This document shows positions 18,972-61,000 of a DNA stretch of 64,000 bases, in pieces. This stretch comes from Phaeospirillum sp. (lineage in GTDB: Bacteria; Pseudomonadota; Alphaproteobacteria; Rhodospirillales; Magnetospirillaceae). Numbering within the stretch: the first letter of the stretch is position 1; every line of letters starts with the position of its first letter. The notes below the pieces were generated by a model. That model had not been told where the DNA came from, made no database searches, and worked only from the letters and a program-made list of their open reading frames with translations. The position numbers and the translations under genes are program-made. Location: contig JAVBXM010000020.1 of the NCBI GenBank assembly GCA_030824585.1, forward strand, positions 1 through 64,000. The letters are read 5' to 3'.

Positions 18972-19174
18972 GATGCTCTCTCATCCGGAAGCCGATTGCC
19001 GCACTTCGGCGCGCGCCGGGACGGTCGGGTTGCGTGCGAAGGGGGAATTTGCTATCCAAACCGTGCGGTTCCGCCGCCTGTCGATTTGCCGCGATGGCGG
19101 CATAAAGGTCAATCCCAATTCCGAGGCATCTGTGGGCATGCAGATTCCGGCTCATTGCATATCGCCCTAGCCTG

Positions 19175-20635: not shown

Positions 20636-20636
20636 C

Positions 20637-42256: not shown

Positions 42257-43501
42257 ATGAGCGCCCAGCATCACCGCCGTTCCACCTGCCGCCTGTGCGG
42301 GTCCAGGCGCCTGACCGAGGTGGTCAAGCTGGCCCCCACCCCGCCGGCCAACGCCTTCGTCCCGGCGTCCGAGCTGGACAAGGCGCAGGAGCGCTTTCCC
42401 CTGGACGTGTTCTTCTGCGAGGACTGCGCCCACGTGCAGTTGCTCGACGTGGTCGATCCCCGGGTGCTGTTCGAGCATTACGTCTACGTCTCGGGCACCT
42501 CGCCGGTCTTCGTGAAGCATTTCGAGGATTACGCCGCCTTCGTCATGGAGCGCTTCAAGCCGGTGGCGGGCGGGCTGGTACTGGACATCGGCTCCAACGA
42601 CGGCACCTTGCTGTCGTTCTTCGGCAAGGCCGGCATGCGGGTGCTGGGCATCGACCCCGCCCAGGAAATTTCCGCCGCCGCCACGGCGCGCGGCATCCCC
42701 ACCCTGTGCGGCTTCTTCGGCGCCGACACGGGGGCCGAGATCGCGGCCAGCCACGGCAAGGCCGAGGTGATCACCGCCAACAACGTCTTCGCCCATATCG
42801 ACGACCTGTCGGGGGTGGTGGACGGGGTACGCGGCCTGCTGGCCCCAAGCGGCGTCTTCGTCTTCGAGGTGTCCTATCTGGTGGACGTGTTCGAGAACAC
42901 CCTGTTCGACACCATCTACCATGAGCACCTGGACTATCACTCGGTCAAGCCGCTGATCCGCTTCTTCGCCGCCAAGGGCATGGAACTGGTGGAAGCCATC
43001 CGGGTGAGTTCGCATGGCGGCAGTTTGCGCGGCATCGCCCAACTGAAGGGCGGCCCCCACAATGTGGGCGAATCGGTGGCCGAGGCGGTGGCGCTGGAGG
43101 AGAGGCTGGGCCTGGACAAGGCCGCGACGCTCTCCAAGTTCGCCGCCGACATCGAGGCGCTTGGCGCCGACTTGAACACCCTGCTCAGGCGGCTCAAGGC
43201 CGAAGGCAAGCGTATCGGCGGGTTCGGCGCGCCGGCCAAGGCCACCACCTTGATGTACCATTTCGGTATCGGGCCGGACCTGATCGACTTCATCATCGAC
43301 GATTCGCCGCTGAAGCAGGGCCTTTATTCCCCCGGCATGCACATCCCGGTGGTGTCGTCGGCCGACGGCTTTGCCAGGCAGCCCGATTACCTGGTGATCC
43401 TGGCCTGGAATTTCGCTCCGGCCATCGTCGCCAAGAACGCCGGGTACCGTGCAGCGGGCGGCAAGTTCATCATCCCCATTCCCAAGGTCGAGGTCCTCTA
43501 A
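42257..43501 (+). CDS. NDP-sugar C-methyltransferase-like protein
   Basis: 414-residue protein with the three-part TylC3/NovU layout: an N-terminal zinc domain (CRLCGS and FFCEDC, residues 14-60), a central SAM domain (VLDIGSNDGTLLSF near 111) and a C-terminal domain with GFGAPAKATTLMYHF near 325. Relatives add a methyl group to carbon 3 of keto-deoxysugar nucleotides. It overlaps the next gene by 1 base. It points to a branched sugar in the glycan. Confidence 0.82.
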   Translation: MSAQHHRRSTCRLCGSRRLTEVVKLAPTPPANAFVPASELDKAQERFPLDVFFCEDCAHVQLLDVVDPRVLFEHYVYVSGTSPVFVKHFEDYAAFVMERFKPVAGGLVLDIGSNDGTLLSFFGKAGMRVLGIDPAQEISAAATARGIPTLCGFFGADTGAEIAASHGKAEVITANNVFAHIDDLSGVVDGVRGLLAPSGVFVFEVSYLVDVFENTLFDTIYHEHLDYHSVKPLIRFFAAKGMELVEAIRVSSHGGSLRGIAQLKGGPHNVGESVAEAVALEERLGLDKAATLSKFAADIEALGADLNTLLRRLKAEGKRIGGFGAPAKATTLMYHFGIGPDLIDFIIDDSPLKQGLYSPGMHIPVVSSADGFARQPDYLVILAWNFAPAIVAKNAGYRAAGGKFIIPIPKVEVL

Positions 43502-44562
43502 TGGCCGAGTTTCTGCTGAAATCCGATATCGCCGAGATCTGCGAGCGCCTGGGCGACACCGCCCAGGATTTCGCCGGCAAGACCGTGCTGCTCACCGGCG
43601 GCCGCGGTTTCCTCGGCCGCTATTTCATGGAGATCTTCGCCCACCTCAACGCCCACGTGCTGAAGAAGCCCGTCAAGCTGGTGGCCGCCGACAACCTGAT
43701 CACGGCGGGCAAGGAAGGGGCGCAGATCACCGAGTATCCCCACACCGAGTTCATCCAGCACGACGTCATCCAGCCGATGAAGTGGAAGGGTTCTCTCGAC
43801 TACGTCATCCATGCCGCCGGCATCGCCAGCCCGTTCTATTACCGCGCCCATCCGCTGGCCACCCTGGAAGTAGCCATCACCGGCACGCGCCGCATGCTGG
43901 AACTGGCCCAGGAGCACAATGCCCGCTTCACCTTCTTCTCGTCGTCGGAAATCTACGGCGATCCCGATCCCAAGCACGTCCCCACCCCGGAAAGCTATCG
44001 CGGCCACGTGTCGTGCCAGGGACCACGGGCCTGCTACGACGAGTCCAAGCGGGTCGGCGAGACGCTGTGCTACATCTTCCACGGCGAGCACGGCACCAAG
44101 ACCAACACCATCCGCCCGTTCAATGTGTTTGGCCCCGGCATGCAGGAGACCGACTACCGGGTGCTGCCCAATTTCGCCAACCGGATCAAGGGCGGCCATC
44201 CGCTCAACGTCTATGGTTCGGGCAACCAGACGCGGACCTTCTGCTACATCACCGACGCCATGGTCGGCTTCCTGCTGGTGATCCTGAGGGGTGTGCCGGG
44301 CGAGGCCTACAACATCGGCAATCCCAAGCCGGAAATCTCCATGGTCGACCTGGTCAACCGCATCTCCGAGGTGACCGGCAAGCCGGTGGCCCACAACATC
44401 ATCGAATACCCGGATTCCTATCCCGCCGACGAGCCCAACCGCCGCTGCCCCGACATCCGCAAGGCCAAGCTGCAGCTCAAGTTCGAGCCCAGCGTCGACC
44501 TCAACGAAGGTCTGCGCCGCTTCCTGACATGGGCCGACGGTGTCTATACCGGCGAGCAGTGA
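43501..44562 (+). CDS. NAD-dependent sugar epimerase/decarboxylase, UXS-like
   Basis: 353-residue extended SDR: VLLTGGRGFLGRYF near residue 30, SSSEIYGDPDPKHVP near 148, [11 protein letters not shown] (YxxxK) near 176 and GSGNQTRTFCYITD near 243. The core is UXS-like and parallels the gene at 29346, but a 25-residue N-terminal extension and the linked C-methyltransferase suggest a related sugar-nucleotide decarboxylase or dehydratase instead. It overlaps the next gene by about 23 bases. Confidence 0.78.
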   Translation: MAEFLLKSDIAEICERLGDTAQDFAGKTVLLTGGRGFLGRYFMEIFAHLNAHVLKKPVKLVAADNLITAGKEGAQITEYPHTEFIQHDVIQPMKWKGSLDYVIHAAGIASPFYYRAHPLATLEVAITGTRRMLELAQEHNARFTFFSSSEIYGDPDPKHVPTPESYRGHVSCQGPRACYDESKRVGETLCYIFHGEHGTKTNTIRPFNVFGPGMQETDYRVLPNFANRIKGGHPLNVYGSGNQTRTFCYITDAMVGFLLVILRGVPGEAYNIGNPKPEISMVDLVNRISEVTGKPVAHNIIEYPDSYPADEPNRRCPDIRKAKLQLKFEPSVDLNEGLRRFLTWADGVYTGEQ

Positions 44563-45484
44563 CCCCGTCCGTCTCGCCCTGATCGGGGCGGGGCGCTGGG
44601 GCCGCAACTATATCCGCACCATCGCGGCGCTGCCCGGAGCGGCGCTGGTGCGCCTCGCCAGCACCAACCCGAAAAGCCGCGATCTGGTGCCACCCCAGTG
44701 CGTGGTGGATGCTGACTGGCGCGCCACCGTCACCGCCCCCGAGGTGGAGGCGGTGATCGTCTCCACTCCACCCGCCACCCATGCCGAGATAACCCTTGCC
44801 GCCATCGCCGCGGGCAAGGCGGTGCTGGTGGAAAAGCCACTAACCCTGAATCTGGCCGAGGCCGAAGCCATCGGCCGCGCCGCCCAAGGCGCCGGGGCGA
44901 TGGTCTGGGTGGAAAACACCCAGTTGTTCAATCCCGCCTGGACGGCGCTGAAAGCCGCCCTGGCCTCCATCGGCCCCATCCTGGCCATTCGCTCGGAGGC
45001 CGGCAATCACGGCCCCTACCGCAAGGGCGGGGTCCCCATGCTGTGGGATTGGGGAGCCCATGACGTGGCCCAGGCTCTCGACCTGATGGGCAGCGACCCG
45101 GACTCGGTGTCCGCCGCCTGGACGGCACGGGGCGAAAGGGAGGGCGGCGAGGCGGGCGATGTCACCCTGACCGTGTCCTTCGGAGTCGTAGAGGCGCGCA
45201 CCCGGCTGTGCAACACCATGGACAAATGTCGCCGCCTGGCGGTCCATGGAGAACGAGGCGTGCTGCTGTTCGACGACGTGGCCGCGGACAAGCTCACCCG
45301 TCACCCGCCGGTTCCCGGCTTCGCTTGGCCCTCGGGCCGTGGAGAACCCCTGGTGGTGGAGGCCGAGATGCCGCTGGCCCGCGCCGTGCGAAGGTTTGCC
45401 GCGGCGGTCCGCAATCCCGAGCCCGGCCCCAGCACCCTGGACCTGGGACTCCGGGTGGTACGGGTGCTGGAGGCTTGCAGCTAA
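44540..45484 (+). CDS. Gfo/Idh/MocA-family oxidoreductase
   Basis: 314-residue oxidoreductase: LALIGAGRWGRNYIRT near residue 13, STPPATHAEI near 76 and the family EKP motif (VLVEKPLTLNL) near 96. It probably oxidises or reduces a sugar-nucleotide with NAD(P). It starts at GTG 44540, overlapping the epimerase; I see no better start, since the Rossmann motif begins soon after. The last gene of the sugar group before the ACP cassette, 87 bases away. Confidence 0.78.
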   Translation: MSIPASSDPVRLALIGAGRWGRNYIRTIAALPGAALVRLASTNPKSRDLVPPQCVVDADWRATVTAPEVEAVIVSTPPATHAEITLAAIAAGKAVLVEKPLTLNLAEAEAIGRAAQGAGAMVWVENTQLFNPAWTALKAALASIGPILAIRSEAGNHGPYRKGGVPMLWDWGAHDVAQALDLMGSDPDSVSAAWTARGEREGGEAGDVTLTVSFGVVEARTRLCNTMDKCRRLAVHGERGVLLFDDVAADKLTRHPPVPGFAWPSGRGEPLVVEAEMPLARAVRRFAAAVRNPEPGPSTLDLGLRVVRVLEACS

Positions 45485-45571
45485 AGTCTCTTGTCCCAAC
45501 CCGGACTGGAGTTTAGTTAAGGACCGTCCTTTGATCGTCTTGGAACATCCGCCATGTCCAAAGAGGCTCCC

Positions 45572-47008
45572 ATGATCCTTGGCACGCGCCGGTTCGACAT
45601 CGGGGACCAGAACGTATTCGCCCGCCTGTCCGGCGACATCAACCCCATTCACATGGATACCTTGGCGGCGCGGCGTTCCATCGTCGGCGGCGTGGTGGCG
45701 CACGGAATGCACACGGTCTTGTGGGCGCTGGAGCAACTGGCCAAATCCCCCTTCTGCCCTGATGGCTTCGGCACCCTGGACGTACAGTTCCCCCATCCGG
45801 TCTATCTCGGCGAAGAAATCAGCCTGCAGCTGCGAAGCCACAACGGTGCCGACCTGCGCCTCAGCGTCTTGGCCGGTGACAAGGCCGTCGCCTCCATCCG
45901 CCTCAGAGGCACGTCGGTGCCGCAAGTCCCCGGCGAGGAGTGGAAAGGCAGCCTTTCGCCCGCCCCGGTCGGACCCCAGGACATTGCCTTCGATGATCTC
46001 GACGGGCAGCAAGGTACGGTCCCTTATGCCGTGGCGGCCGATTGCTTCGCATCCACCTTTCCTGCAGCCACCACCCGATTCGGGGCGCCGATTTTGAGAG
46101 ATTTGGCGGCCTGTTCACGGCTGGTAGGAATGCACTGCCCCGGACTGCGATCCATCTTTTCCCGCCTTACCCTGCACTGGCGGCACCGCAGCCTGACGGC
46201 ACCTCTGGATTACCATGTTACCGTGACAGATTCCCGCTTTAGCCTTGTTACGATAGCCGTGGATAATGCTGCCCTCAGCGGTACCATCCAGGCGTTTTCT
46301 CCGCCGCCCCCGCCACGCCAGTTGACAATCAAAGAGCTGGCTCGGCGCATCGCTCCCAATACTTTCGCCGGACAGACCGCGCTGGTCGTCGGTGGTTCAA
46401 GGGGACTGGGGGAGCTGACAGCCAAGGCCATTGCCGCCGGGGGCGGCCGGGCCTGGGTGACCTATGCTGCGGGACAAAATGATGCACAGCGAGTAGTCGA
46501 AGAAATCCACCGATTCGGAGGCGAGGCTCGGTGCCTTGCCTACGACGCCACGCTGCCAGCGGCCCCACAATTGGCCAGGCTGGGACCAGAGCACCCAAGC
46601 CATGTCTACTATTTTGCCACCTGCCATATCTCCCGCGCCAGGACCCAGGCCTTCGACACCACCCTGCTAGAGCGCTTCATGGCCTTTTACGTCCAGGGTT
46701 ATCAGGCGCTGCTCCGGGCGTTGTGGGAGAGCGGGGCCAGAGATGTCGCCAGCTTCTATCCCTCCACCAGCTTCGTCGAGAATCGCCCCGAGGGCATGAC
46801 CGAGTACGCCATGGCCAAGGCCGCCGGTGAAATTCTGGCTACCGACCTGGAAGCCCTCTTCCCCGGTTACCGCTCTCATCAGTTCCGCCTGCCGCGTCTG
46901 TTGACCGACCAGACGGCCGAGGTTCTGACACAGGACCTGCCCCAGGCCATCGACGTGCTATTGCCCGTATTGCTGTCCATGCGGGCGCCCGGCCGGCCGC
47001 CGGCGTGA
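45572..47008 (+). CDS. MaoC hydratase-SDR ketoreductase fusion
   Basis: 478-residue fusion. Residues about 5-115 form a MaoC hot-dog domain with the full hydratase motif FARLSGDINPIHMD (catalytic Asp/His). Residues 130-255 look like a second, degenerate hot-dog. From about 270 there is an SDR: VVGGSRGLGE, then serine in YPSTSF and YAMAK (YxxxK). This pairs hydratase/dehydratase and 3-ketoacyl reductase activity on one chain, suited to acyl-ACP substrates. ATG 45572 has AAAGAGG 6 bases upstream; ATG 45554 would add six residues. The ACP gene follows. Confidence 0.8.
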   Translation: MILGTRRFDIGDQNVFARLSGDINPIHMDTLAARRSIVGGVVAHGMHTVLWALEQLAKSPFCPDGFGTLDVQFPHPVYLGEEISLQLRSHNGADLRLSVLAGDKAVASIRLRGTSVPQVPGEEWKGSLSPAPVGPQDIAFDDLDGQQGTVPYAVAADCFASTFPAATTRFGAPILRDLAACSRLVGMHCPGLRSIFSRLTLHWRHRSLTAPLDYHVTVTDSRFSLVTIAVDNAALSGTIQAFSPPPPPRQLTIKELARRIAPNTFAGQTALVVGGSRGLGELTAKAIAAGGGRAWVTYAAGQNDAQRVVEEIHRFGGEARCLAYDATLPAAPQLARLGPEHPSHVYYFATCHISRARTQAFDTTLLERFMAFYVQGYQALLRALWESGARDVASFYPSTSFVENRPEGMTEYAMAKAAGEILATDLEALFPGYRSHQFRLPRLLTDQTAEVLTQDLPQAIDVLLPVLLSMRAPGRPPA

Positions 47009-47076
47009 TTGATCCTCCGCACCAAGGCATGGTATATACGCGCGCCCCGTCCCAAGCCCCGTCCGAGAGGAAAATC

Positions 47077-47310
47077 GTGAATATTTACGAGAGGTTGACG
47101 CCGATCTTCCAAGACGTGTTCGACAGCGACGACTTGGTTGCGGCCCCCGAATTGACCGCCAAGGATGTGGAGGGATGGGACTCCCTTTCCCATATCCGGC
47201 TGATCGTCGCCGTCGAGGCTGAATTCGGCATCAAGTTCAGTATCTCGGAGCTGAGCGGCCTCAAAAATGTGGGTGCCATGGTGGCCTTGATCGAGGCCAA
47301 GACCTCCTGA
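47077..47310 (+). CDS. Dedicated acyl carrier protein
   Basis: 77-residue acidic ACP. The phosphopantetheine serine is S36 in GWDSLSHI, with helix VEAEFGIKFSISEL after it. The start is GTG 47077 with GAGAGG 6-7 bases upstream; the longer frame to 47005 adds unrelated residues. Flanked by the MaoC-SDR fusion and the FkbH-like gene, it is probably the carrier on which a small hydroxyacyl group is built, separate from fatty-acid ACP. Confidence 0.9.
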   Translation: MNIYERLTPIFQDVFDSDDLVAAPELTAKDVEGWDSLSHIRLIVAVEAEFGIKFSISELSGLKNVGAMVALIEAKTS

Positions 47311-47326
47311 TGCCGCGCCGGTCACC

Positions 47327-49195
47327 ATGACCACTCTCTCATCCCTTCCCTGGCTGCCGCCACCGCCGGCCGATTTCCGCGAGCGAGCCCGGACGGCTGC
47401 CGATGGCGCCGCCTTGCGCGCCCTGGCCGGTTTCGCCCTGGACGCCAACAAAGCCGCCGCCCTGGCCAAGGCAGCCGATCGCCTGCGTCCCGGCGGCATT
47501 AAAGACCTGGACAGCGTCCGTCTGGGCCTGCTGTCCAATGCTACCACCGACCTGATCGCTCCGGCCCTCGTGGCGGCAGGATTGCGCCACGGTCTGCTGC
47601 TGGAAGTGGTGGCTGGCCCATATGGGCAACTATTCCAGCAGGCCAACGACCCCGAATCCGAGATCAACCGGGCGCGGCCAGATCTGGTGCTCTTGGCGCT
47701 CGACCATCGCGGGCTGGGCCTGACCGCCGATCAGCCGGATGGTGTGGCTCTGGCTTTGGCCGAGTTGGACGGCCTTAGAAACGGCCTCAAGGCCCATTGC
47801 CGTGCTCCAGTCATCGTCCAGACCATCGCCGTCCCCTCCGAGCCCCTGTTCGGCAGCCTGGATATACGCCAGCCGGCGACCCTGAGACGCAAGGCCGTCG
47901 ATTTCAACGCCGGGCTGGTGGAGCGTATGGAGAGCGGCACCGACTATCTCCTGGATGTGGCCGGGCTGGCGGAAGCCGTGGGCACCGCCCAGTGGCACGA
48001 TCCGGGACAGTGGTTCCTTGCCAAGCTGCCGTTTGCCCAGAATCTCGTTCCCCTCTACGCAGAACACGTGGCCCGTCTACTGGCGGCGATCCGTGGCCGG
48101 TCGCGCAAATGCTTGGTGCTCGACCTGGACAACACCCTGTGGGGCGGGGTGATCGGCGACGATGGCCTGGATGGTATCGTGCTGGGCCAAGGCGACGGGC
48201 TGGGCGAGGCTCATCTGGCCGTCCAGCATCTGGCCCTGGACCTGAACCGGCGCGGCGTGGTGCTGGCCGTGTGTTCCAAGAACGACGACGCCAATGCCCG
48301 CCTGCCGTTCCACTCCCACCCCGACATGGCGCTATGCGAGGAGCATATCGCGGTCTTCCAGGCCAACTGGTTTGACAAGGCCAGCAATCTCGAAGCTATC
48401 GCCCGTCGCCTCGATCTCGGCCTAGACGCCATGGTGCTATTGGACGACAACCCCGCCGAGCGCGCCCAAGTGCGCACCGCCCTGCCCATGGTAGCGGTGC
48501 CGGAGCTGCCCGCCGACCCGGCGCAGTTCAGCCGCATCCTGTCCTGGGCCGGTTATTTCGAGGCGGTGACCTTCTCCGCCGACGACCGCCGGCGGGCCGA
48601 GCAGTACCGCGCCAATGCCGAACGGGCCCAGTTGAAGGAGACGGTCCGCGACCTGGGGGACTATCTGGCCTCGTTGGAGATGACCCTGTCCGTCGCCCCC
48701 TTCGATTCCGCCGGGCGCGGGCGCATCGCCCAGCTCATCAACAAGTCCAACCAGTTCAACCTAACCACCCGCCGCCGCACCGAGGCCGAACTGGCCGAAC
48801 TGGCGGCCGATCCCGCCGTCTTCACCCTGCAGGCGCGGCTGGTGGACCGCTTTGGCGACAACGGCATGATCGGCGTCGCCATCTGCCGGCCCGCCGCCGC
48901 CGATTGGGAGATCGACACCTGGCTGATGAGTTGCCGGGTCCTCGGCCGCCGGGTGGAGAACGCCGTGCTGGCCGAAATCGCCGCAGCCGCCCGGGCCGCC
49001 CGGGCGAAGGGGCTGGTCGGCCGCTTCATCGCCTCCGGACGCAACGAGATGGTACGCGATCATTACGCCAAGCTGGGCTTCACGCCCCAGGGCGACCAGC
49101 CCGACGGCTCCACCTTGTGGCGGCTGGATCTGGCCGGGTGGGAGGCGCCGGCTCTACCCATGCGCGTCGAGCGGCGGCCGGAGGCCGCCCGGTGA
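47327..49195 (+). CDS. FkbH-like HAD acyl-ACP loading enzyme
   Basis: 622-residue FkbH-family protein. It has an N-terminal SGNH-like part (about 45-230), the HAD domain with LDLDNTLWGGVIGDDG near 265 and LLDDNPAERAQVR near 372, and a GNAT-like C-terminal domain (about 460-610). Family members dephosphorylate 1,3-bisphosphoglycerate and load glyceryl onto an ACP, or load lactyl groups. The ACP gene lies 16 bases upstream, a natural partner. The last bases overlap a small membrane-peptide gene. Confidence 0.86.
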   Translation: MTTLSSLPWLPPPPADFRERARTAADGAALRALAGFALDANKAAALAKAADRLRPGGIKDLDSVRLGLLSNATTDLIAPALVAAGLRHGLLLEVVAGPYGQLFQQANDPESEINRARPDLVLLALDHRGLGLTADQPDGVALALAELDGLRNGLKAHCRAPVIVQTIAVPSEPLFGSLDIRQPATLRRKAVDFNAGLVERMESGTDYLLDVAGLAEAVGTAQWHDPGQWFLAKLPFAQNLVPLYAEHVARLLAAIRGRSRKCLVLDLDNTLWGGVIGDDGLDGIVLGQGDGLGEAHLAVQHLALDLNRRGVVLAVCSKNDDANARLPFHSHPDMALCEEHIAVFQANWFDKASNLEAIARRLDLGLDAMVLLDDNPAERAQVRTALPMVAVPELPADPAQFSRILSWAGYFEAVTFSADDRRRAEQYRANAERAQLKETVRDLGDYLASLEMTLSVAPFDSAGRGRIAQLINKSNQFNLTTRRRTEAELAELAADPAVFTLQARLVDRFGDNGMIGVAICRPAAADWEIDTWLMSCRVLGRRVENAVLAEIAAAARAARAKGLVGRFIASGRNEMVRDHYAKLGFTPQGDQPDGSTLWRLDLAGWEAPALPMRVERRPEAAR

Positions 49196-49314
49196 AGCCC
49201 CTTCGCCCGTCCCCCGCCCTGTCCCTGGCCTGGCTGATGGCCAAGCTGATCCTCGGCGTGCTGCTGGCCGTTAATCTGGGGGAGGCGGTGGTCATTGCCT
49301 ACCAGCAGTTCTAG
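49192..49314 (+). CDS. 40-residue single-span membrane peptide
   Basis: Starts at GTG 49192, overlapping the FkbH stop as GTGA, and ends 20 bases into the SGNH gene. The peptide has a basic N-terminus (MKPLRPS) and one hydrophobic helix (about residues 12-36), ending AYQQF. The coupled overlaps on both sides argue that it is translated. Function unknown; it could hold the ACP or FkbH enzyme near the MBOAT. Small peptides in other SGNH/MBOAT loci make an analogy possible, but I see no homology. Confidence 0.5.
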   Translation: MKPLRPSPALSLAWLMAKLILGVLLAVNLGEAVVIAYQQF

Positions 49315-50434
49315 CCGCGCTCTCGGCGCCCTGGTCGTCCTGCTGGCGGTCCTGGCCGGCGGGGAGATGCTGGCCCGGACGGCGCTGTTTCCCCATTACC
49401 GCGCGCTGTCACCCGACGTGGTCGGTCCCAACCCCTATTTCGGCACCTATACCCGCCCCAATCTAGCCGAGCGCCGCTTCAGCCCCGGCAATTTTGACGT
49501 GGTCAACCGGACCAATTCCTATGGCCTGCGCGGGCGGGAGCAGGGATTCGAGGACGACCTGAACGGTATTTGGGTATCGGGCGAATCCAACGCCTTCGGC
49601 ACCGCCCTCGACGACGGCGAGATTTTCTCGGCGCGGCTCCAGCAGCGGGGCTACCGAGTGGCCAATCTGGCCAACGAGGGGGGCGGCCCCGGCACCCAGT
49701 ACCCGGTCATGCGCAAGCTGGCGGACATGGGGTTCCGGCCCAAGGCGGTGGTCTATGTCATGACCCTCAACGACGGTGTCCAGGTCTATGGGCCGCTGGA
49801 TGCAGAGCCCGTGACCGAGCCCCTGCCCCCCGCCCATCAGGCGTTGGCGACCAGCGTTCGGCGACTTTTCCGCGCCGAGATGCTCACGCCCATGGGCCTC
49901 AAGACCACCCTGCTCCGCTCCAGCGCCCTTTACTGCTGGATCAAACTCAAAACCAGCGAGGCCCCGCTGGTGCAGGCCTGGATGACGCGGATCGGCGCGG
50001 TGCGCGACATCGATCTGGTGCCCAGCGGCAATCCCGACCTGATGCGCCGCGATCCCGGTCCCCTCGACCGGTTGTTCGACGAGACCGCCGATGCCATCGC
50101 CCAGATGCGCGATCTGGCGGAAGGACGGCTGGGGGCCCGCTTCATGGTCGTACTACTACCCGCCCACCATGCGCTCTATCCCGCGCGTTTCGAGAAATAC
50201 GCGGCTCATCTGGGGCTGGACCGCAGCCTTTATGATCCGGGCAGGCCGATGCGCCGCATGGCCCAGGCGCTGGACACCCGCCATGTGGCGTGGATCGATT
50301 CCACCCCGGCGCTCCGCGCCGCCCACGATCCCCAGCTGATCTTTCCCAATGACGGCCATTTCAACGCCAAGGGCCATGCCATCCTGGCCGATCTCCTGGC
50401 GGCGCGCCTGCCTCGGCCGGAGGCGCGGCCATGA
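49295..50434 (+). CDS. SGNH-hydrolase-like membrane-anchored protein
   Basis: 379-residue protein with an N-terminal membrane anchor (about residues 8-25) and a periplasmic SGNH-like domain: WVSGESNAFG near 90 (block I serine), NEGGGPGTQYP near 126 and PNDGHFNAKGH near 350 with the catalytic Asp/His. It starts at TTG 49295 with GGGGGAGG about 9 bases upstream, the only start in frame with a ribosome site. It overlaps the MBOAT gene by 4 bases and probably delivers the acyl group to the glycan. Confidence 0.75.
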   Translation: MPTSSSSRALGALVVLLAVLAGGEMLARTALFPHYRALSPDVVGPNPYFGTYTRPNLAERRFSPGNFDVVNRTNSYGLRGREQGFEDDLNGIWVSGESNAFGTALDDGEIFSARLQQRGYRVANLANEGGGPGTQYPVMRKLADMGFRPKAVVYVMTLNDGVQVYGPLDAEPVTEPLPPAHQALATSVRRLFRAEMLTPMGLKTTLLRSSALYCWIKLKTSEAPLVQAWMTRIGAVRDIDLVPSGNPDLMRRDPGPLDRLFDETADAIAQMRDLAEGRLGARFMVVLLPAHHALYPARFEKYAAHLGLDRSLYDPGRPMRRMAQALDTRHVAWIDSTPALRAAHDPQLIFPNDGHFNAKGHAILADLLAARLPRPEARP

Positions 50435-51645
50435 TCGATCTGCTGCCCCCCCTGGCCGCCGACAGCATCGGCTTCGCCAGCCTGGCCTCGCTGTGCATCC
50501 TGGCCGCCTGGTACGCGCCGGCCGCCTTTCCCCTGGCCCTGGCGGCGACCAGCACGGTGGTGGCGCTCAGCTGGCTGCACGCGATCGATCTGGCCGTGCT
50601 GGCCGTCTTCCTGGTGCCGCCCTATGTGGTCGCCCGCTGGTCCTGGGGGCGGCCCGAACGCGCCGATGGCAAGGTGATCGTCGCCGCCATTACCCTTCAA
50701 ACCGCCATGTTCCTGGTAATCAAGGGGTATCCTGGGGCTCAGCTGCTGCAGCCCTGGAACCAGCCGGTGGCGGTGGTCGGCATCTCCTACATGCTGTTCC
50801 GCCAGCTCCAGTTGATGATTGATGCGCCCAATATGGGCGAGGTTAGGCTAACCCCATACCGCTACCTGACATGGCTTTTGGCCTTCTGGACCCTGCTGGC
50901 CGGACCGATCCAGCGCTACAACGCCTTCGTCGAGGGATTGGCGGGAATTCACCGTCCCGGCCGTGACGAGGCCCTGGCAGCCGCGCACCGGACCGTCAAC
51001 GGCTTCATCAAGGCCTTCGTCCTGGCTCCAGTTCTTCTGGGGCCGTCCAAGATATCGCTGCTGGCCCGGCCAGGCAGCGACTGGCTTGACCTCGCGGTGG
51101 TCTTCTACGCCTTCCCCTTCTACCTCTACCTGAACTTCTCCGGCTATACCGACATGATGATCGGAATCGCCCGGCTGTGCGGCTTCACCACCCTGCCCGA
51201 GAATTTCAACGCTCCCTATCTGGCACGGAACTGCCAGGACTTCTGGGGGCGCTGGCACATGTCGCTGAGCGGCTGGATTCGCGACTACCTGTTCACGCCG
51301 CTGTCGCTGGCCATCCACCGGCGCCTGCCGGCGAAATACCACGCCCTGGCCCTGGCGGCGGCGGTGCTGCTGACCTTCGTGGTAGTGGGCGGCTGGCACG
51401 GCACCACCGGCGCTTTCGTCGTGTTCGGGCTGATGCATGGCATCGGCGTGCTGGCGGTAGCCCTTTGGGACGGCCTGCTGAAGAAGAGGCTGGGCCGGGC
51501 CGGGCGCAAGGCCTTCGTGGAAAAGCCCTGGGTCCGCGTCGCCGCCGTGGCGCTGACCTTTCACTACGTGGCGGCTGCCATGATGCTGGTGAACAACTCC
51601 CTGGCGGAGATCACCGGAGGTCTGGCGGCCCTTCTGCGTCTTTGA
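50431..51645 (+). CDS. MBOAT-family O-acyltransferase, second copy
   Basis: 404-residue polytopic protein of the MBOAT family: YLYLNFSGYTDMMIG near 231, FWGRWHMSLSGWIRDYL near 270 and the active-site histidine in GGWHGTTGA near 327. It would pass an acyl group, probably from the ACP of this operon, across the inner membrane. The start is ATG 50431, coupled to the SGNH gene. Its last 35 bases overlap the end of the convergent glycosyltransferase gene. A separate MBOAT/SGNH pair lies at 19.2 kb. Confidence 0.88.
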   Translation: MIDLLPPLAADSIGFASLASLCILAAWYAPAAFPLALAATSTVVALSWLHAIDLAVLAVFLVPPYVVARWSWGRPERADGKVIVAAITLQTAMFLVIKGYPGAQLLQPWNQPVAVVGISYMLFRQLQLMIDAPNMGEVRLTPYRYLTWLLAFWTLLAGPIQRYNAFVEGLAGIHRPGRDEALAAAHRTVNGFIKAFVLAPVLLGPSKISLLARPGSDWLDLAVVFYAFPFYLYLNFSGYTDMMIGIARLCGFTTLPENFNAPYLARNCQDFWGRWHMSLSGWIRDYLFTPLSLAIHRRLPAKYHALALAAAVLLTFVVVGGWHGTTGAFVVFGLMHGIGVLAVALWDGLLKKRLGRAGRKAFVEKPWVRVAAVALTFHYVAAAMMLVNNSLAEITGGLAALLRL

Positions 51646-52765
51646 ACCGGCCGAGAAGAACCACCGCCCGGCGGCCGTAATCGGCCCAGGTGAAGCCACC
51701 GGCCACCGCCCGCCGTCCGGCGGCCGCCATGGCCTCACGATGCCCGGGATCGTTCAGGGCCCGCCGCAACCCCTCTTCCAGGGCGGCACCGTCGCCTGGC
51801 CCCACCAGAATCGGCAAGGCGTCGGGAATATCCACCGCCCCGGTGGCGGTGCTGGCCACCACCGGCAGGCCCGCCGCCATGGCCTGCAGCACGACCATGC
51901 CGAAACCCTCTTCGATGGAGGGCAGGCAGAACAGGTCGGCATCGGCGAAGACCTGGACCAGCGCCTCTCCCCGCAAGGGCCCATGCAGATGGACCCGCCC
52001 GCCCGGCCAGCGTCCCAGCAGGGGGCGAAAGGCCGGCTCCAGCGGCCCGACCAGGTGCAGTTCGGCGTCACCGCCCAGGCGGGTGAAGGCCTCCAGCAGC
52101 CAGGGCACGCCCTTGCGCACTCCCACCTGCCCGACGAACAGGATGCGCGGCGGCCCGGGACGGCGCGGCGGCCCCGGCCGGGCGAAGCGCTCCAGATCGA
52201 CGCCATAGGGATTGACGGCCACCTTCGCCACCTCCACCCCGTGTGGCGCGAAGGTGGCGGCGGCGGCCGACGAGCCGGTGACCACCAGATCGGCCAGGGC
52301 ATATTCCTCGGCCTCGCGCGCCATCAGGCGGGGATCGATGCCGGGAAACCGCAGTCCCAGCCGGGCATGGGCCTCGGTCAGCACGGCGTTCTGATGGGCG
52401 ATATGGGTCGAGCCGCGCTCGATCACCACCGCCATCCCTCGCCGCCGCGCCTCGCGCGCCGCCTCCAGCGAGGCGCCGCTCCATCCCACCAGGATATCGG
52501 CCCGTTCCGGCAGGGTCGCGGCGGCGAAAGCGCCGAAGCGATGGGCGATCAGATGATCGGGTGTCGCGACGCCCAGCTTGCCGCACAGACGCCGCAGCAT
52601 TTCCAGCCAGGGCGCGGTGCGCAAGGCCACGCCAGCCGGCAGGAAACGCCGCGCCACCGGGGCCGGATAGGTGGTGGCCAATTGCGCCAGATAGCCGTGA
52701 CGCGACAGCTCCCCCGCCAGTTCAAAGGCATGGAAGCGGCCGTGGACGCAAAGGGCGACCTTCAC
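51611..52765 (-). CDS. Glycosyltransferase family 4
   Basis: 384-residue GT4 enzyme: N-terminal domain beginning MKVALCVHGRFHAFELAGEL; C-terminal RILFVGQVGVRKGVPWLLEA near 205 and LPSIEEGFGMVVLQAMAAG near 283 (donor-site E-x7-E). It starts at GTG 52765, overlapping the upstream gene as GTGA; the open frame to 52927 is a shadow. First read after a run of five similar genes from the right. It ends inside the convergent MBOAT gene. Confidence 0.85.
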   Translation of the reverse strand: MKVALCVHGRFHAFELAGELSRHGYLAQLATTYPAPVARRFLPAGVALRTAPWLEMLRRLCGKLGVATPDHLIAHRFGAFAAATLPERADILVGWSGASLEAAREARRRGMAVVIERGSTHIAHQNAVLTEAHARLGLRFPGIDPRLMAREAEEYALADLVVTGSSAAAATFAPHGVEVAKVAVNPYGVDLERFARPGPPRRPGPPRILFVGQVGVRKGVPWLLEAFTRLGGDAELHLVGPLEPAFRPLLGRWPGGRVHLHGPLRGEALVQVFADADLFCLPSIEEGFGMVVLQAMAAGLPVVASTATGAVDIPDALPILVGPGDGAALEEGLRRALNDPGHREAMAAAGRRAVAGGFTWADYGRRAVVLLGRFKDAEGPPDLR

Positions 52766-54006
52766 GGCGGCCTCCCCGCCGCCCGGCTCAAGACCGCTTC
52801 GAGCCGCGCCGCCTGGGCCCCCCAGGTATAGCCGGCCAAGGCTCCCCGGTCCACGCCGCCCCCCTGGGGCCGCCGCTGGCGCCAGGCCCGCTCCAGCGCC
52901 TGGGCCAGGGCCGGCGGGTCGGGGCACAGGCTGAGATCACCGCCGCAGGCCGAGGCGATGTCCACCGCTTCGGGCGTCTCGGTGGGAAAGGTGGCGATGG
53001 GACGGTCGGCGCTCAACAGTTCGAACAGCTTGTGATGGAACCAGCCCGGCTGGCCCACCACCCGTCCATAGAGGTTGAGAAAGGCCTGCCGCTGCAGCCC
53101 GGCCAGATCGGCCAGCGCGATGAAGGGCCGGATATCGAGACCGCAGCGCCCCTCCAGCCCCTCGGCCATCCGCCTTACCAGTTCATGCTCGCCGCCGGCA
53201 TAGGTGAGGACGATCTCGCCGCGTTGCTCCCGGGGCAAGCCTTCCAGGAACCGCCCGACTCCGGCCATCATGCCCTCCAGCCAGCCATAGCTGCTGCCGG
53301 TTATGGTGATGCGGAACGGCATCGAAGGAGCGGTGGGGACCAGCAATTCGTCGGGGATGCCGCTGTAGACGGCGGTCTTGGGTATGGCGAAGCGCCGTCC
53401 CGACTGGTCCAGATGCCCCTGGGACAGGCCGGTGCAGGCGGCGGCATCGGCGAATCGCCGCGCCACCAGAGCGCTGACCGGGCACGGCACGAAGGCGTCC
53501 CATACATCCTTGATGTCCATCACCCAGGGGCAGTGGGACTGCCGCGCGACGCCCTGGGCGATGGCCCAGGCGTCGGTATTGCCGAAGGTACCCCAGGCGA
53601 CCTCGGGCCGGAAGACCTGGGCCAGCACGGACCAATAGGGCATGCTGCCCCGGCGCCAGTCACTGAAGACCCCCCCGTGGCCGAGGTAATGCCCGGCCAG
53701 CACCAGACGGCGGAGCGGACGGGGCAGCCTGCCTTCCCGCGCCGCCGCCAGCAGCGGCGCGGGACGAGGAGGACAGGCCAGATGGAAGGGCCGACCCCAG
53801 TCATGGGCTGCCAGTGCCTCGGCTATGCCGGCCGGATCAGCGCCAGAATCGGCCGAACCGAGCGCCCCGGTCAGCAGGACGACCCGGTGCCCCCGTTCGG
53901 CCAGGGCCTTGGCGAAGCGCGCCACCCGCACCGCCCCAATGACCGGAGCCTGGGGGTGATGGTGGTTGACCGCGAGAATCCGCAACGGTTCGGCCGGGCT
54001 GGACAT
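52762..54006 (-). CDS. Glycosyltransferase, GT4-like
   Basis: 414-residue GT-B-like protein. N-terminal HHHPQAPVIGAVRVARFAKALAERGH motif resembles WbuB-style donors, and a later RPIATFPTETPEAVDI stretch near 337 is the donor region. The central part is less conserved than in the neighbouring transferases. ATG 54006 lies 0 bases from the flippase stop. Sugar unknown. Confidence 0.72.
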   Translation of the reverse strand: MSSPAEPLRILAVNHHHPQAPVIGAVRVARFAKALAERGHRVVLLTGALGSADSGADPAGIAEALAAHDWGRPFHLACPPRPAPLLAAAREGRLPRPLRRLVLAGHYLGHGGVFSDWRRGSMPYWSVLAQVFRPEVAWGTFGNTDAWAIAQGVARQSHCPWVMDIKDVWDAFVPCPVSALVARRFADAAACTGLSQGHLDQSGRRFAIPKTAVYSGIPDELLVPTAPSMPFRITITGSSYGWLEGMMAGVGRFLEGLPREQRGEIVLTYAGGEHELVRRMAEGLEGRCGLDIRPFIALADLAGLQRQAFLNLYGRVVGQPGWFHHKLFELLSADRPIATFPTETPEAVDIASACGGDLSLCPDPPALAQALERAWRQRRPQGGGVDRGALAGYTWGAQAARLEAVLSRAAGRPP

Positions 54007-55263
54007 TCAATGGCCTCCCCGCCGGACGGCAAGTCCGACGATCAAGGTCGCCGCCGAAAGGACCGCCACCGCCGAAAGGACTGCGCCCAGTTTGACTGCC
54101 GAAGCACCATCGGCAACCAACAGGCAGCCCAGGCCAAAGATGGCGTACTGCATCCCCCGTCCGGTGAGCAGCAGGGCATTTTGGCGCTGTGCCAGACAAT
54201 AGGCCCGAACCAGTTCGAACATGCTATAGCCCAGCACTACGCCGGCCATGGCTGCCATGACCGGCCCGGCCTCGCGCCATCCCGCCCCGAACAGCCAGGG
54301 GATCACCACATCGGCAAAGGCCCAGGTCCCCAGGGCGGCCGCTGCCAACGGCAGGGACAACAGCAGCCCGATCCGCACCAGGGTATGAAACGCGTCGCGC
54401 CCTTCGATGCGGCAGAATACGTTGCCGGCCAACCGCACCACCACGGGCGATAGAATCTGGTGGGGCACCAGGGCCAGCCGCTGTGCCTGAACGAACAGAC
54501 CGGTGCCGTGGGTCCCGCACAACATGCCCACCGCCAGGATGGTCAGACGCTGGAAGCCGCCGTCGACGATACCGTCCAGCCATGGGACGCGAGTCCCGGT
54601 CAACAGCAGGCGCCATTCCGCCAGAGTGACCCAGCGCAGCGGCCAGCGGGGAATAGCGCCGAGCCTCAGCATCATGGCGAGGCGCACCACCACCACCACC
54701 GCTTCGCGCAGGTAAAGACTGGCCACGCCCGCCCCGGCCAGAGCCAGAAGAAGCGCCGCCGCGTGGCCCGTCACCTGCGAGCCGGTTTCGATGGCGGTCA
54801 GATGGCGGTAGGGCATACCGCGCTCGAAGAAGGTAGTCACCGAATTGAGCCAGTGGCCCAGCGCCAGGGTCATGACCAGGGGAAAGACCCATAGAGATGA
54901 GATCCCGACCACGACCTGCCAGACCAGCATGAGGACAAGGGAGAACACGGCTTCGATGGCCATGGCCGAATTGAGGCGATGGCGGAAATCCTCGGTATAT
55001 TCGTCCTCCCGAGCGAGAATCGCCAGCGTGCCGAGGCAGGGGGAGAAGATGACCTGCACCAGTCCGGCGCTGGCCAACACCAAGGCAAAGCCGCCGAAAT
55101 CAGCCGGCACCAGCAGACGCATCAGGATTAGCTGGCTGGCGAATCCCGCCAGCGACTGCACCAGGGAACTTCCCATCAGCAGCGCGCCGTTCCGCACGAA
55201 AGACCGGCCCCAGCCTTGCCGGGCCGTCGCGTCATGGGCGGAAGACTCGGCCCGGCGGTCCAT
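54007..55263 (-). CDS. Polysaccharide flippase, Wzx family
   Basis: 418-residue membrane protein with about 12 hydrophobic segments of the Wzx/Polysacc_synt type (RNGALLMGSSLVQSLAGFASQLILMRLL at the start). It flips undecaprenyl-linked glycan to the periplasm. ATG 55263 shares a base with the upstream stop as TGATG; the frame to 55446 is not needed. No Wzy-type polymerase was recognised nearby, so the finished unit may be polymerised elsewhere or stay as one unit. Confidence 0.82.
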   Translation of the reverse strand: MDRRAESSAHDATARQGWGRSFVRNGALLMGSSLVQSLAGFASQLILMRLLVPADFGGFALVLASAGLVQVIFSPCLGTLAILAREDEYTEDFRHRLNSAMAIEAVFSLVLMLVWQVVVGISSLWVFPLVMTLALGHWLNSVTTFFERGMPYRHLTAIETGSQVTGHAAALLLALAGAGVASLYLREAVVVVVRLAMMLRLGAIPRWPLRWVTLAEWRLLLTGTRVPWLDGIVDGGFQRLTILAVGMLCGTHGTGLFVQAQRLALVPHQILSPVVVRLAGNVFCRIEGRDAFHTLVRIGLLLSLPLAAAALGTWAFADVVIPWLFGAGWREAGPVMAAMAGVVLGYSMFELVRAYCLAQRQNALLLTGRGMQYAIFGLGCLLVADGASAVKLGAVLSAVAVLSAATLIVGLAVRRGGH

Positions 55264-56387
55264 CAGCGCCGCATGGTCTCGAACAGACCGATCAGGCGGT
55301 CGACATGATCGGACCATTGCAGATCGGACAGCACTCTTGCCCGGCCATCGGCCGCCAGTCGCTGGCGCAGGGCCGGATCGGCATCCAGCGCCAGGACCTG
55401 CTTCAGCATTTCTTCGGGCCGGAAGGGCGCGGCGTAGAGGGCGCAATCGCCGCAGACCTCGCGCGCCACCGGCGTGTCGGCGACAACCACCGGCAGGCCG
55501 GAACTCAATGCCTCGGCCATGGGATGGCCAAAGGTCTCGGCCACCGCCGGAAAAACAAAAACATCGTGGCTATTGTAAAGTTTGGGCAATTGCTGATACG
55601 GCACCTTGCAGAGGGTCAGCTTGCCCGCCGCCGACAGGCGCTCCATGGCCACGAGGTCAAGGGCACCGCCGGGCGAACTGGCCGCATCCTCCATCTGCAT
55701 GGTAATGGTGGCATGGGCTCGGATGCCGGCCGCCTCCAGCCGCTCCACCAGACGGCAGACGTCGCCCGGCGATTTGTGCGGGTAGTAGACCGACACGTAA
55801 AGCAGGCGCAGCACCCCATCCTCGCGCCACGTCCGTGACCGTTCGCCTAGATTGAAGAGGTCGCCCAGGGTGCCGTAACGATTGACCTCGACCTTCCCGA
55901 CGCTTTCCGGCTGCCATTGCGCCAGCAGATCCTTCATGGCCTGGGACGGGGCCATCACCTTGTCAGCCCAGATCATGGACTGCAGCATCAGCTTCCGGCG
56001 CATGAAGCGCCAGGCGGCCAGCTTGATCCCCTGGCTGGGGGCCACATAGTGAAGGTAGAAGGGATCGAATAGCCCGCCCTCGCGCATCAGCAGGAGTTGG
56101 GGCACCGGTGACCGGAAGATGCCGAAATTGGCTGACGAGAACAAGACATCGGGGTTGGTCCGCGCCACCACCCTTGGCCAAACCAACTGCTCCCACAGCA
56201 AGCGATGGGTCGGATTGTAATTGGCCACCGGATGGCGGATCGCCTTGATCCCTTCGGGAAGCTCGAACTCGGGCGAAACCGCCGCGGTCACGTCGATGCC
56301 GCGATCACGGAGCGCCCCCAGCATGTTGCTGGTATAGGTGAGGATGCCGCCCCGTTTGGCGGAAAAGGCGTTCATCAGAATTTTCAT
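55263..56387 (-). CDS. Glycosyltransferase family 4
   Basis: 374-residue GT4 enzyme. Starts MKILMNAFSAKRGGILTYTSN; C-terminal region has LLYVSVYYPHKSPGDVCRL near 190 and VFVFPAVAETFGHPMAEALSSGLP near 277. It shares the LLMREGGLF/FYLHYV arrangement with the gene at 59729, so the two are probably related copies. Overlaps the flippase by 3 bases and the upstream gene by 4. Confidence 0.86.
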   Translation of the reverse strand: MKILMNAFSAKRGGILTYTSNMLGALRDRGIDVTAAVSPEFELPEGIKAIRHPVANYNPTHRLLWEQLVWPRVVARTNPDVLFSSANFGIFRSPVPQLLLMREGGLFDPFYLHYVAPSQGIKLAAWRFMRRKLMLQSMIWADKVMAPSQAMKDLLAQWQPESVGKVEVNRYGTLGDLFNLGERSRTWREDGVLRLLYVSVYYPHKSPGDVCRLVERLEAAGIRAHATITMQMEDAASSPGGALDLVAMERLSAAGKLTLCKVPYQQLPKLYNSHDVFVFPAVAETFGHPMAEALSSGLPVVVADTPVAREVCGDCALYAAPFRPEEMLKQVLALDADPALRQRLAADGRARVLSDLQWSDHVDRLIGLFETMRR

Positions 56388-57421
56388 GACAGGCCCTTCG
56401 CGGCGGCAAGCACGCGGCTCAGCACGTCGCCATGGCCGAGGCCCAGCTCTTGCACCCGGCGGAGACCGGCGACGGCGACAGCCGTGCGGCTCGCATCGTC
56501 AGCGAGCCAACGGCGACACTGGGCCACCAGGTCACCGTCGTCGCTGAAATAGGCCGCAGTACACTCGGAAGGCAGCAAGGCCGCCATCTCTTCCGACCGT
56601 TCGTGCATCATGAACGCTCCGCAAGCAGGAATCTCGATGGATCGGGTGGTCTGCCGATCCCGGTTGAAATGTCGCAGGAAGCATAGGTTGATTTTGCTGG
56701 CACACAATACCCGGACGTAATCCTCGCCGTAGACCGGCCTGTTCTCCACCACCAGACCTGAATGGGCTCCCGCCATGCCACCCCAGCCGTTACCCCAGAC
56801 ACGGCAATTCAGCCCGGCCCGGGCCAGATGGAGAAGACTGGCGGCGCGCGGTGCCTCAAAGGTGCCGACGAAGCTGATATCGGCGCCGAAACGTGCTCTG
56901 TCGCCGTCATCCACCGTCACGGGACGGTGAAGCGACGGGTCATAGGAATTATTAACGAACAAAACCCGCCGCGCGCCGCGCGCCGGCATCTCCCCGGGCT
57001 CGGCGTTGAACGACTTGGTGGTGACCCACAGATCGAACAATGGAATGGCGGCGGCAAGCCAGTGCGACAGGTGGCGCGGGTTGACCATGTCGTCTTCCGA
57101 GATCCACACCAGCGACAGCCCCGGATTGATAGCCTTCATCCCTCGCAGGGTCCGGCGGCGCACGGTCCGGACATTGTCGAACAGGGCCAAGTCGAACTCG
57201 CGCGCATCCAGTCCCGCCAGGGTGGCATTGACCCCGGCCAGGTCGAAGGGGACCCGCAGACGGTAACTGATGCGATAGGCAAGCGACGGGACCCGTTCGC
57301 AGGAATGGCCTTCGGGCGTTGAGGGCACGAAGCGCACCGAATGGCCCAGTTGGCGCAGGGCGTCAAGCCGCTGAAGCGAGCGCGAGCCTGGAACCGATTC
57401 GGCAACGAACAGGATTCTCAT
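56384..57421 (-). CDS. Glycosyltransferase-like protein (CgeB/DUF3880-type)
   Basis: 345-residue protein beginning MRILFVAESVPGSRSLQRLDALR. It has ISFVGTFEAPRAASLL near 190, WGNGWGG near 215, and a late RSIEIPACGAFMMHERSEEM near 272, the CgeB/glycosyl-transferase-1_2 signature. The start is ATG 57421 (overlaps the next gene by 4 bases). Probably a spore-coat-glycan-type transferase acting on the same glycan as its neighbours. Confidence 0.78.
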   Translation of the reverse strand: MRILFVAESVPGSRSLQRLDALRQLGHSVRFVPSTPEGHSCERVPSLAYRISYRLRVPFDLAGVNATLAGLDAREFDLALFDNVRTVRRRTLRGMKAINPGLSLVWISEDDMVNPRHLSHWLAAAIPLFDLWVTTKSFNAEPGEMPARGARRVLFVNNSYDPSLHRPVTVDDGDRARFGADISFVGTFEAPRAASLLHLARAGLNCRVWGNGWGGMAGAHSGLVVENRPVYGEDYVRVLCASKINLCFLRHFNRDRQTTRSIEIPACGAFMMHERSEEMAALLPSECTAAYFSDDGDLVAQCRRWLADDASRTAVAVAGLRRVQELGLGHGDVLSRVLAAAKGLS

Positions 57422-59726: not shown

Positions 59727-59728
59727 GG

Positions 59729-60817: not shown

Positions 60818-61000
60818 AGCAAGACACCCTTCAATATCGTGACTGTATGGCACAGCCGAACCTACCCCACGGAATGGGGCATCTCCTCCTGCCGAGGACT
60901 TCGGATGACTGACGCGAATCCCCTGATTTGTAGGGGATCGAATGTCCAAGCACAATGGGCTTTTCGCCGGCCCGAGCTCCGCTCTCACCTCGAAAGCGCC

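Follow-up and report, generated by a model that had tools for sequence, protein, structure and literature searches.

In teichoic-acid D-alanylation, the Dlt system (DltX-A-B-C-D) combines a carrier protein, an MBOAT without a C-terminal tail, a separate one-helix microprotein with a YxxF end and an SGNH partner. DltX and PatA are described as ending in FXYXXF, the tyrosine of which receives the acyl group from the MBOAT and delivers it to the SGNH protein; in the parts consulted of the 2025 account that sets this out (PMC12148441), MBOAT/SGNH pathways other than Dlt have neither a DltX-like microprotein nor a carrier protein, and the known tail-bearing MBOATs use acetyl-coenzyme A (acetyl-CoA). 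In PatA/PatB and AlgI/AlgJ/AlgX O-acetylation, acetyl-CoA is the donor and the shuttle motif lies on the MBOAT's own tail. FkbH proteins, to which formation of glyceryl-acyl carrier protein (ACP) is assigned in tetronate pathways, are best known from polyketide clusters (PMC7489565, consulted in part). Here we describe a six-gene cassette of Phaeospirillum sp. in which an FkbH protein and an ACP stand beside a small peptide, an SGNH protein and an MBOAT, and which probably forms a Dlt-like trans-membrane acylation pathway with FkbH in the slot of DltA. The cassette lies in a stretch of 64,000 nucleotides (contig JAVBXM010000020.1, assembly GCA_030824585.1; 66.7% G+C), hereafter the window, from a genome of 4.94 Mb.

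The cassette resembles Dlt but carries a different putative loader

The six genes are tightly packed on the + strand. The first (45554..47008, +) encodes a fusion of MaoC and short-chain dehydrogenase/reductase (SDR) domains (Pfam MaoC 56 bits, adh_short 27.7 bits), a probable tailoring enzyme for the dehydration and reduction of an ACP-bound acyl group; its second ATG, at 45572, is the start used in a preliminary description of the locus, and its active-site patterns are intact (GDINPIH in MaoC, GGSRGLG and YAMAK in SDR). The ACP (47077..47310, +; GTG start), with a putative DltC-like role, has a PP-binding match of 29.6 bits and the serine motif GWDSL, and matches the DltC model weakly (24.4 bits, cut-off 68). 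FkbH (47327..49195, +), a predicted HAD-type ACP loader in DltA's place, scores 285.5 bits against TIGR01686 (cut-off 146.65) and 39.8 bits against Pfam FkbH_N, and a profile search found it to be the sole match of its family in the source genome. Its HAD motif DLDNT is intact, and DxDxT, K318, D373-D374 and C536 are invariant in 15 of 15 aligned sequences. X (49192..49314, +), a one-helix membrane peptide of 40 residues and a probable acyl-shuttle microprotein, has a GTG start in a 4-base overlap (GTGA) with the stop of FkbH, and GGAGG upstream. The SGNH protein (49295..50434, +; TTG, start uncertain) has an N-terminal membrane helix, an ALGX match of 31.6 bits and the residues Ser98 and His355, which do not vary in any of the 10 proteins compared, and is a probable periplasmic transferase in the role of DltD or PatB. 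The MBOAT gene (50431..51645, +; Pfam MBOAT 49.4 bits) overlaps the SGNH stop (ATGA); the protein retains His323 and ends at its core (...GGLAALLRL), without a C-terminal FxYxxF tail, an architecture like that of DltB. The MaoC, adh_short, PP-binding, FkbH_N, ALGX and MBOAT matches all exceed the Pfam cut-offs, and X matches no Pfam family. Reading frames, family matches and intact active-site patterns bear out the preliminary description, which had put six genes at essentially this place. That description had also staked its reading on the conservation of the gene set as a unit, and the reading survived: FkbH is accompanied by ACP and MBOAT genes in many loci (see below), and the set recurs within the order. 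A second genome of the genus (L039) has the same cassette in the same order, with proteins that are 75-91% identical one by one.

Like Dlt, the cassette unites a carrier protein, a tail-less MBOAT, a separate one-helix microprotein with a YxxF end and an SGNH partner, and DltB is the nearest solved structure to its MBOAT by sequence as well as by fold. A profile of the cassette MBOAT and three relatives found DltB alone in the PDB (6bug, E = 5.9e-51), and the predicted MBOAT model (pLDDT 82.2) matched DltB with Z 32.1 over 387-391 residues, compared to 25.4 for the next family. Unlike Dlt, the cassette has FkbH instead of DltA, an ALGX-like SGNH protein instead of DltD, an extra MaoC-SDR protein and a Gram-negative glycan context, and X matches no DltX model and has V or I at the first motif position. 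The DltB-model score was rejected as evidence of kinship, as the ten MBOATs tried, among them the tail-bearing one of the window, score 124-198 bits, none of them near 375.

Another way to explain these likenesses is true D-alanylation, with FkbH as a bystander and D-alanine loaded by an adenylating enzyme encoded elsewhere. The fold and architecture of DltB, the separate X and the weak DltC resemblance of the ACP are consistent with this, as are 36 weak DltA-model matches in the genome, such as adenylating enzymes of many kinds give. However, the highest DltA score in the whole source genome is 235.9 bits, short of the cut-off of 559.85, and the two top matches belong to open frames that are 1595 and 1355 amino acids long; DltD (PF04914) has no match in the source genome, with positive controls in B. 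subtilis and L. lactis; X has no Pfam DltX match; and the MBOAT scores 198.2 bits against the DltB model TIGR04091, below its cut-off of 375. As the models for DltA, DltB, DltD and DltX are not matched at the level that membership demands, the cassette is not a member of Dlt, and a bystander FkbH in a genuine D-alanylation locus is highly improbable.

With PatA/PatB and AlgI/AlgJ/AlgX O-acetylation the cassette shares an MBOAT and an SGNH protein with catalytic Ser and His, the logic of an acyl-tyrosine shuttle and the Gram-negative setting, but the presence of a carrier protein and a separate shuttle means that it is not a standard MBOAT-SGNH O-acetylation pair. FkbH with a stand-alone ACP recalls the tetronate and methoxymalonate pathways; unlike those, the cassette has no polyketide synthase in sight and its ACP is coupled to an export acyltransferase. 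The glyceryl genes of gellan and other sphingans were considered as a precedent and dropped, the terms FkbH, acyl carrier, MBOAT and glycer- being absent from PMC5399355 and PMC11340318. No description of a system of the cassette's type was found in the titles and abstract starts of the papers listed by searches of the open-licence literature, a body of text that leaves most subscription papers outside, so that novelty is unproven.

A clade of MBOATs keeps X and the SGNH protein and changes putative loaders

When 297 genomes of the order were searched with a profile built from four such MBOATs, ten genomes, the source genome included, scored at least 421 bits, and the next scored 253. In all ten loci X lies directly before the SGNH gene, which is followed by the MBOAT gene. 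X has a basic N-terminus, one hydrophobic stretch and the C-terminus VVIAYQQF, within which the shuttle-like hexapeptide IAYQQF is encoded at 49294..49311 (+) and Tyr37 at 49300-49302. All ten clade peptides end in [VI]AYQ[QR]F, and alignment of these with an eleventh, from L038, showed that S11, K18, L25, Y37, Q38 and F40 are invariant. The pattern [FILVM]xYQ[QRN]F at a stop has 12 matches in 2.38 Mb of sequence (the window and the fetched loci in six frames, some stretches being counted twice); all 12 are X genes adjoining an SGNH or MBOAT gene, in 11 distinct loci. Between the window and L039, X shows seven silent codon differences and six that change a residue, the start codon among the latter, and no change in its last 19 residues, which taken alone is weak evidence of selection. 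The Pfam model for DltX (PF12459) has no match at X in any of the ten clade genomes, six of which have weak matches below the cut-off elsewhere; among 14 control genomes, two had matches above it. Its shuttle-like end and the lack of a tail on the MBOAT make X a probable trans-membrane acyl shuttle. The preliminary description had left the small peptide unexplained and missed the resemblance to Dlt with a different loader, whereas the ACP-based export acylation that it proposed stands.

Seven of the ten clade loci carry FkbH, and six of these have both MaoC and SDR, either as separate genes beside ACP and FkbH (L211, L213, L214, L215) or fused (the window and L039); L212, the remaining one, carries a methyltransferase and a glyoxalase-like gene in their place. 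An ACP is also present in all three loci in which FkbH was not found in the stretch read (L216, L217, L218). The gene directly behind the MBOAT in L217 encodes an AMP-binding ligase (171 bits). In L216 (2228-3478) and L218 (7836-9086), a class II synthetase-like protein is encoded directly behind X-SGNH-MBOAT; the two are 58% identical to each other, and the best solved relative of the L216 protein is the amino acid:[acyl-carrier-protein] ligase Bll0957 (PDB 3mey, E = 3.9e-35), a kind of ligase that is absent from the cassette. These sister-locus ligases would load the neighbouring ACP, and finding this kind of ligase downstream of an unchanged X-SGNH-MBOAT core hints that other loaders can serve it as well.

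A separate peptide probably takes the place of the MBOAT tail

After identical proteins were merged (92 rows to 85), 64 of the distinct MBOATs in the loci examined had a motif tail and 21 did not. A membrane open reading frame (ORF) with a shuttle-like end was found within 1.8 kb on the same strand of 19 of the 21 tail-less MBOATs compared to 1 of the 64 tail-bearing ones, with a Fisher p of 1e-15 that overstates independence because 10 of the 21 belong to one clade and the rows are not independent. With the stricter end [FLIV]xYxxF, the counts were 17/21 and 1/64. The lone tail-bearing MBOAT with such an ORF (L222) adjoins a second, tail-less MBOAT. One of the 19, L171, has a tail (...EFLYFQF) in another frame, and without it the count is 18/20; L043 and L222 fall outside the distance and strand rule, the peptide being farther off in the former and on the other strand in the latter. 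The remaining 11 tail-less MBOATs lie outside the clade, and some of them (L219-L225) were fetched because the MBOAT was short. The two types also differ in length: tail-bearing MBOATs extend at least 63 residues beyond the core in 70 of 70 rows, whereas 18 of 22 tail-less rows end between -11 and +8 residues from it. A tree made by a quick method from 64 of the 92 rows (leaving out duplicates, L157, L171 and short matches), in which several rows have long branches, had two changes between tail types.

Outside the clade, a more distant locus (L038), which belongs to a different family within the class, encodes an MBOAT with 35% identity, FkbH, an ACP, a lone MaoC and a separate peptide that ends in FFVYQNF. 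Besides L038, the FkbH loci outside the clade with a separate peptide are L043 (4 kb off), L224 and L227. Tail-less MBOATs in five loci with no FkbH in the stretch read also adjoin a membrane ORF with a shuttle-like end (L219, NFVYVVF; L220, SVVYGQF; L221, EFQYLAM; L223, VFRYAGF; L225, MFLYGRF). By these ends, peptides of the DltX type could be widespread among Gram-negative bacteria.

FkbH is coupled to MBOATs in many genomes

Species genomes were scanned with an FkbH alignment, and the best 80 of at least 568 relatives were taken as named loci, with up to 10 kb on each side where the contig allowed. The results showed that an ACP is present in 74 of the 80 loci and an MBOAT in 52 (45/63 where at least 5 kb was available on both sides). 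The gap between FkbH and the MBOAT is below 1 kb in 35 loci, 1-2 kb in 16 and 2-3 kb in one, with none farther, and the two genes share a strand in 47 of 52. Such loci span Pseudomonadota, Acidobacteriota, Eremiobacterota/Vulcanimicrobiota and one cyanobacterium. By gene neighbourhood, then, FkbH is coupled to MBOATs, in agreement with the dedicated ACP-based export acylation cassette of the preliminary description. MaoC occurs in 16 of the 80 loci, as a MaoC-SDR fusion in 13 and alone in three. Among the 47 candidates for a gene beside the MBOAT, 10 were sampled with Pfam, giving one GDSL match above the cut-off, two weak SGNH/GDSL matches, three weak DUF1574 matches, one methyltransferase and three with nothing useful. 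An SGNH profile built from the window was too narrow (5 matches in the first loci) and was dropped.

The genes might instead belong to two systems side by side, in which FkbH, ACP and MaoC-SDR feed a cytoplasmic acyltransferase (for example, for N-acylation of an amino sugar) and X, SGNH and MBOAT export acetyl groups from acetyl-CoA. The donor of the known tail-bearing MBOATs, as given in the consulted parts of PMC12148441, fits this reading, and an MBOAT was missing from the stretch read in 28 of the 80 FkbH loci (18/63 when only loci with 5 kb or more on each side are counted); FkbH-ACP therefore serves other ends too. ACP, FkbH and MaoC/SDR also occur with a second ACP in L154 and L169. 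On the other hand, every one of the 52 MBOATs lies within 3 kb of FkbH, 47 on its strand, when up to 10 kb was read on each side; the 4-base overlap in the window spans the boundary between FkbH and X; other putative loaders replace FkbH beside the same core and an ACP; and, among the 26 window proteins scanned with Pfam (four of which match nothing), only two MBOATs and the SGNH protein were recognised as acyltransferases. We consider the division into two systems unlikely.

L154 (9737-16244) and L169 (9986-16075) each contain the ACP, FkbH, MaoC-SDR, the second ACP and further proteins, with no MBOAT found. By eye, this gene set presumably resembles exosortase-associated hydrolase genes. The FkbH module may thus have other uses.

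Proposed pathway and points against it

Because shuttle-like ends on separate peptides and on MBOAT tails are distributed in a complementary way, the clade keeps X-SGNH-MBOAT together and FkbH is coupled to MBOATs, we propose that the cassette works like Dlt with FkbH as the loader, and put the probability of this at about 70%. FkbH would form a C3 acyl-thioester on the ACP from glycolytic phosphoglycerate. MaoC could then remove the beta-hydroxyl group to give an enol-pyruvyl and hence a pyruvyl-ACP, the 2-oxo group of which SDR would reduce to give lactyl-ACP; alternatively, MaoC and SDR may act on the acyl-ACP in another way. The MBOAT would take over the acyl group from the ACP and pass it through the membrane onto Tyr37 of X, a step suggested by the complementarity and the motif. 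X would hand it to Ser98 of the SGNH protein, which would esterify a sugar residue in the product of the surrounding glycan locus. That glycan would be expected to bear a lactyl or glyceryl group, a C3 size that would fit FkbH chemistry. Lactyl is our tentative first choice, glyceryl is possible but rather doubtful, and some other acyl group would account for what remains.

A role of MaoC-SDR in a chain-extension cycle was set aside: the gene lists, in which no profile search for a ketosynthase was made, showed none next to FkbH-MaoC-SDR. In the window, a Pfam scan that covered 26 of its proteins found no ketosynthase, as the preliminary description had stated for the cassette, and no other polyketide or peptide synthetase gene. 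L216, which yielded neither FkbH nor MaoC, has a KAS III-like protein.

Several observations weigh against the proposed pathway. The DltB model does not discriminate, as the second, tail-bearing MBOAT of the window scores 180.7 bits compared to 198.2 for that of the cassette. Position 1 of the motif in X is I (V or I in all ten clade members) instead of F, and Pfam DltX does not match X. The clade is of narrow range: across a spread of 398 genomes of the phylum, the window's own MBOAT was the only one to exceed 219 bits, and among 17 genomes of the genus, the cassette's MBOAT is present in two and any match at E 1e-30 in five. Three of the ten clade loci have no FkbH in the stretch read, and the ACP of L217 is on the other strand. 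Besides the 28 FkbH loci without an MBOAT, the SGNH partners in tail-bearing FkbH loci mostly go unrecognised by Pfam, with one of the 10 sampled above the GDSL/SGNH cut-off. Four tail-less rows depart from the core-end rule, L220, L221 and L227 being unmeasurable and L171 having its tail in another frame. The MaoC of L038 has no GDxNPxH pattern. Finally, the lactyl step is a matter of reasoning; the same FkbH-lactyl proposal has reportedly been made for the bryostatin loading module, and no confirmation of it was found among the open-licence papers listed.

More broadly, we are somewhat inclined to view the cassette as one form of a Gram-negative, modular counterpart of teichoic-acid D-alanylation, with a constant export core and exchangeable loaders that place hydroxyacyl or aminoacyl esters on surface glycans. 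The core would consist of the carrier protein, tail-less MBOAT, DltX-like shuttle microprotein and SGNH protein, and the loaders of FkbH (glyceryl or lactyl), amino acid:carrier-protein ligases (amino acids) and AMP ligases (other acids). This locus and its relatives have a carrier protein and a DltX-like microprotein without belonging to Dlt, and their putative loader is of another chemical kind, which makes the mechanism of the shuttle look more general and more interchangeable than had been supposed. If this is true, FkbH proteins outside polyketide clusters and some amino acid:carrier-protein ligases would gain a biological role, the ligase-like genes of L216 and L218 pointing to a candidate function for such ligases. 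Predictions that follow are an acyl-tyrosine on the 40-residue peptide, an ester new to Gram-negative glycans and a function for FkbH beyond polyketides.

Genomic context and further observations

Upstream of the cassette, nucleotide-sugar genes (42257..45484, +) encode a C-methyltransferase, an NAD-dependent epimerase/dehydratase and a Gfo/Idh oxidoreductase, and possibly supply the acceptor sugar. Convergent genes downstream (51611..60988, -) encode six proteins with glycosyltransferase domains and a Polysacc_synt flippase. From these surroundings (nucleotide-sugar genes, glycosyltransferases and flippase), the locus is a glycan locus.

This context bears on a further explanation, a secondary-metabolite tailoring cluster in which FkbH-ACP supplies the synthesis of a small molecule, with the MBOAT and SGNH proteins as exporters or tailoring enzymes. 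The AlphaFold model of the SGNH protein (pLDDT 81.8) has its best match in CgnD of crocagin biosynthesis (Z 18.6 over 229 residues), followed by many GDSL/SGNH esterases and thioesterases (Z 12.7-15.2), and the association of FkbH with polyketide clusters in the consulted part of PMC7489565 points the same way. Yet glycan genes flank the cassette on both sides, and the 26 scanned window proteins include no ketosynthase or polyketide or peptide synthetase, making a small-molecule product very unlikely. DltD is not among the 50 fold matches listed for the SGNH model, which excludes nothing.

The second MBOAT of the window (19175-20635), with its own tail (...EFLYYQF), lies between two proteins without a Pfam match; this region (18201-21836) is probably a separate O-acylation system.

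In 29 of 30 loci (L238-L267; L244 in the source genome itself), the protein of the small membrane family DUF5989 (PF19451) has an FxYxxF end, most often APFIYT[IL]F; in the thirtieth, the script did not find the gene. A further copy, in L041 (6966-7127), ends in FRYTPF, and the family is present in 29 of 142 genomes of the class. As its end follows the same grammar as the acyl-shuttle end, DUF5989 may be another shuttle microprotein.

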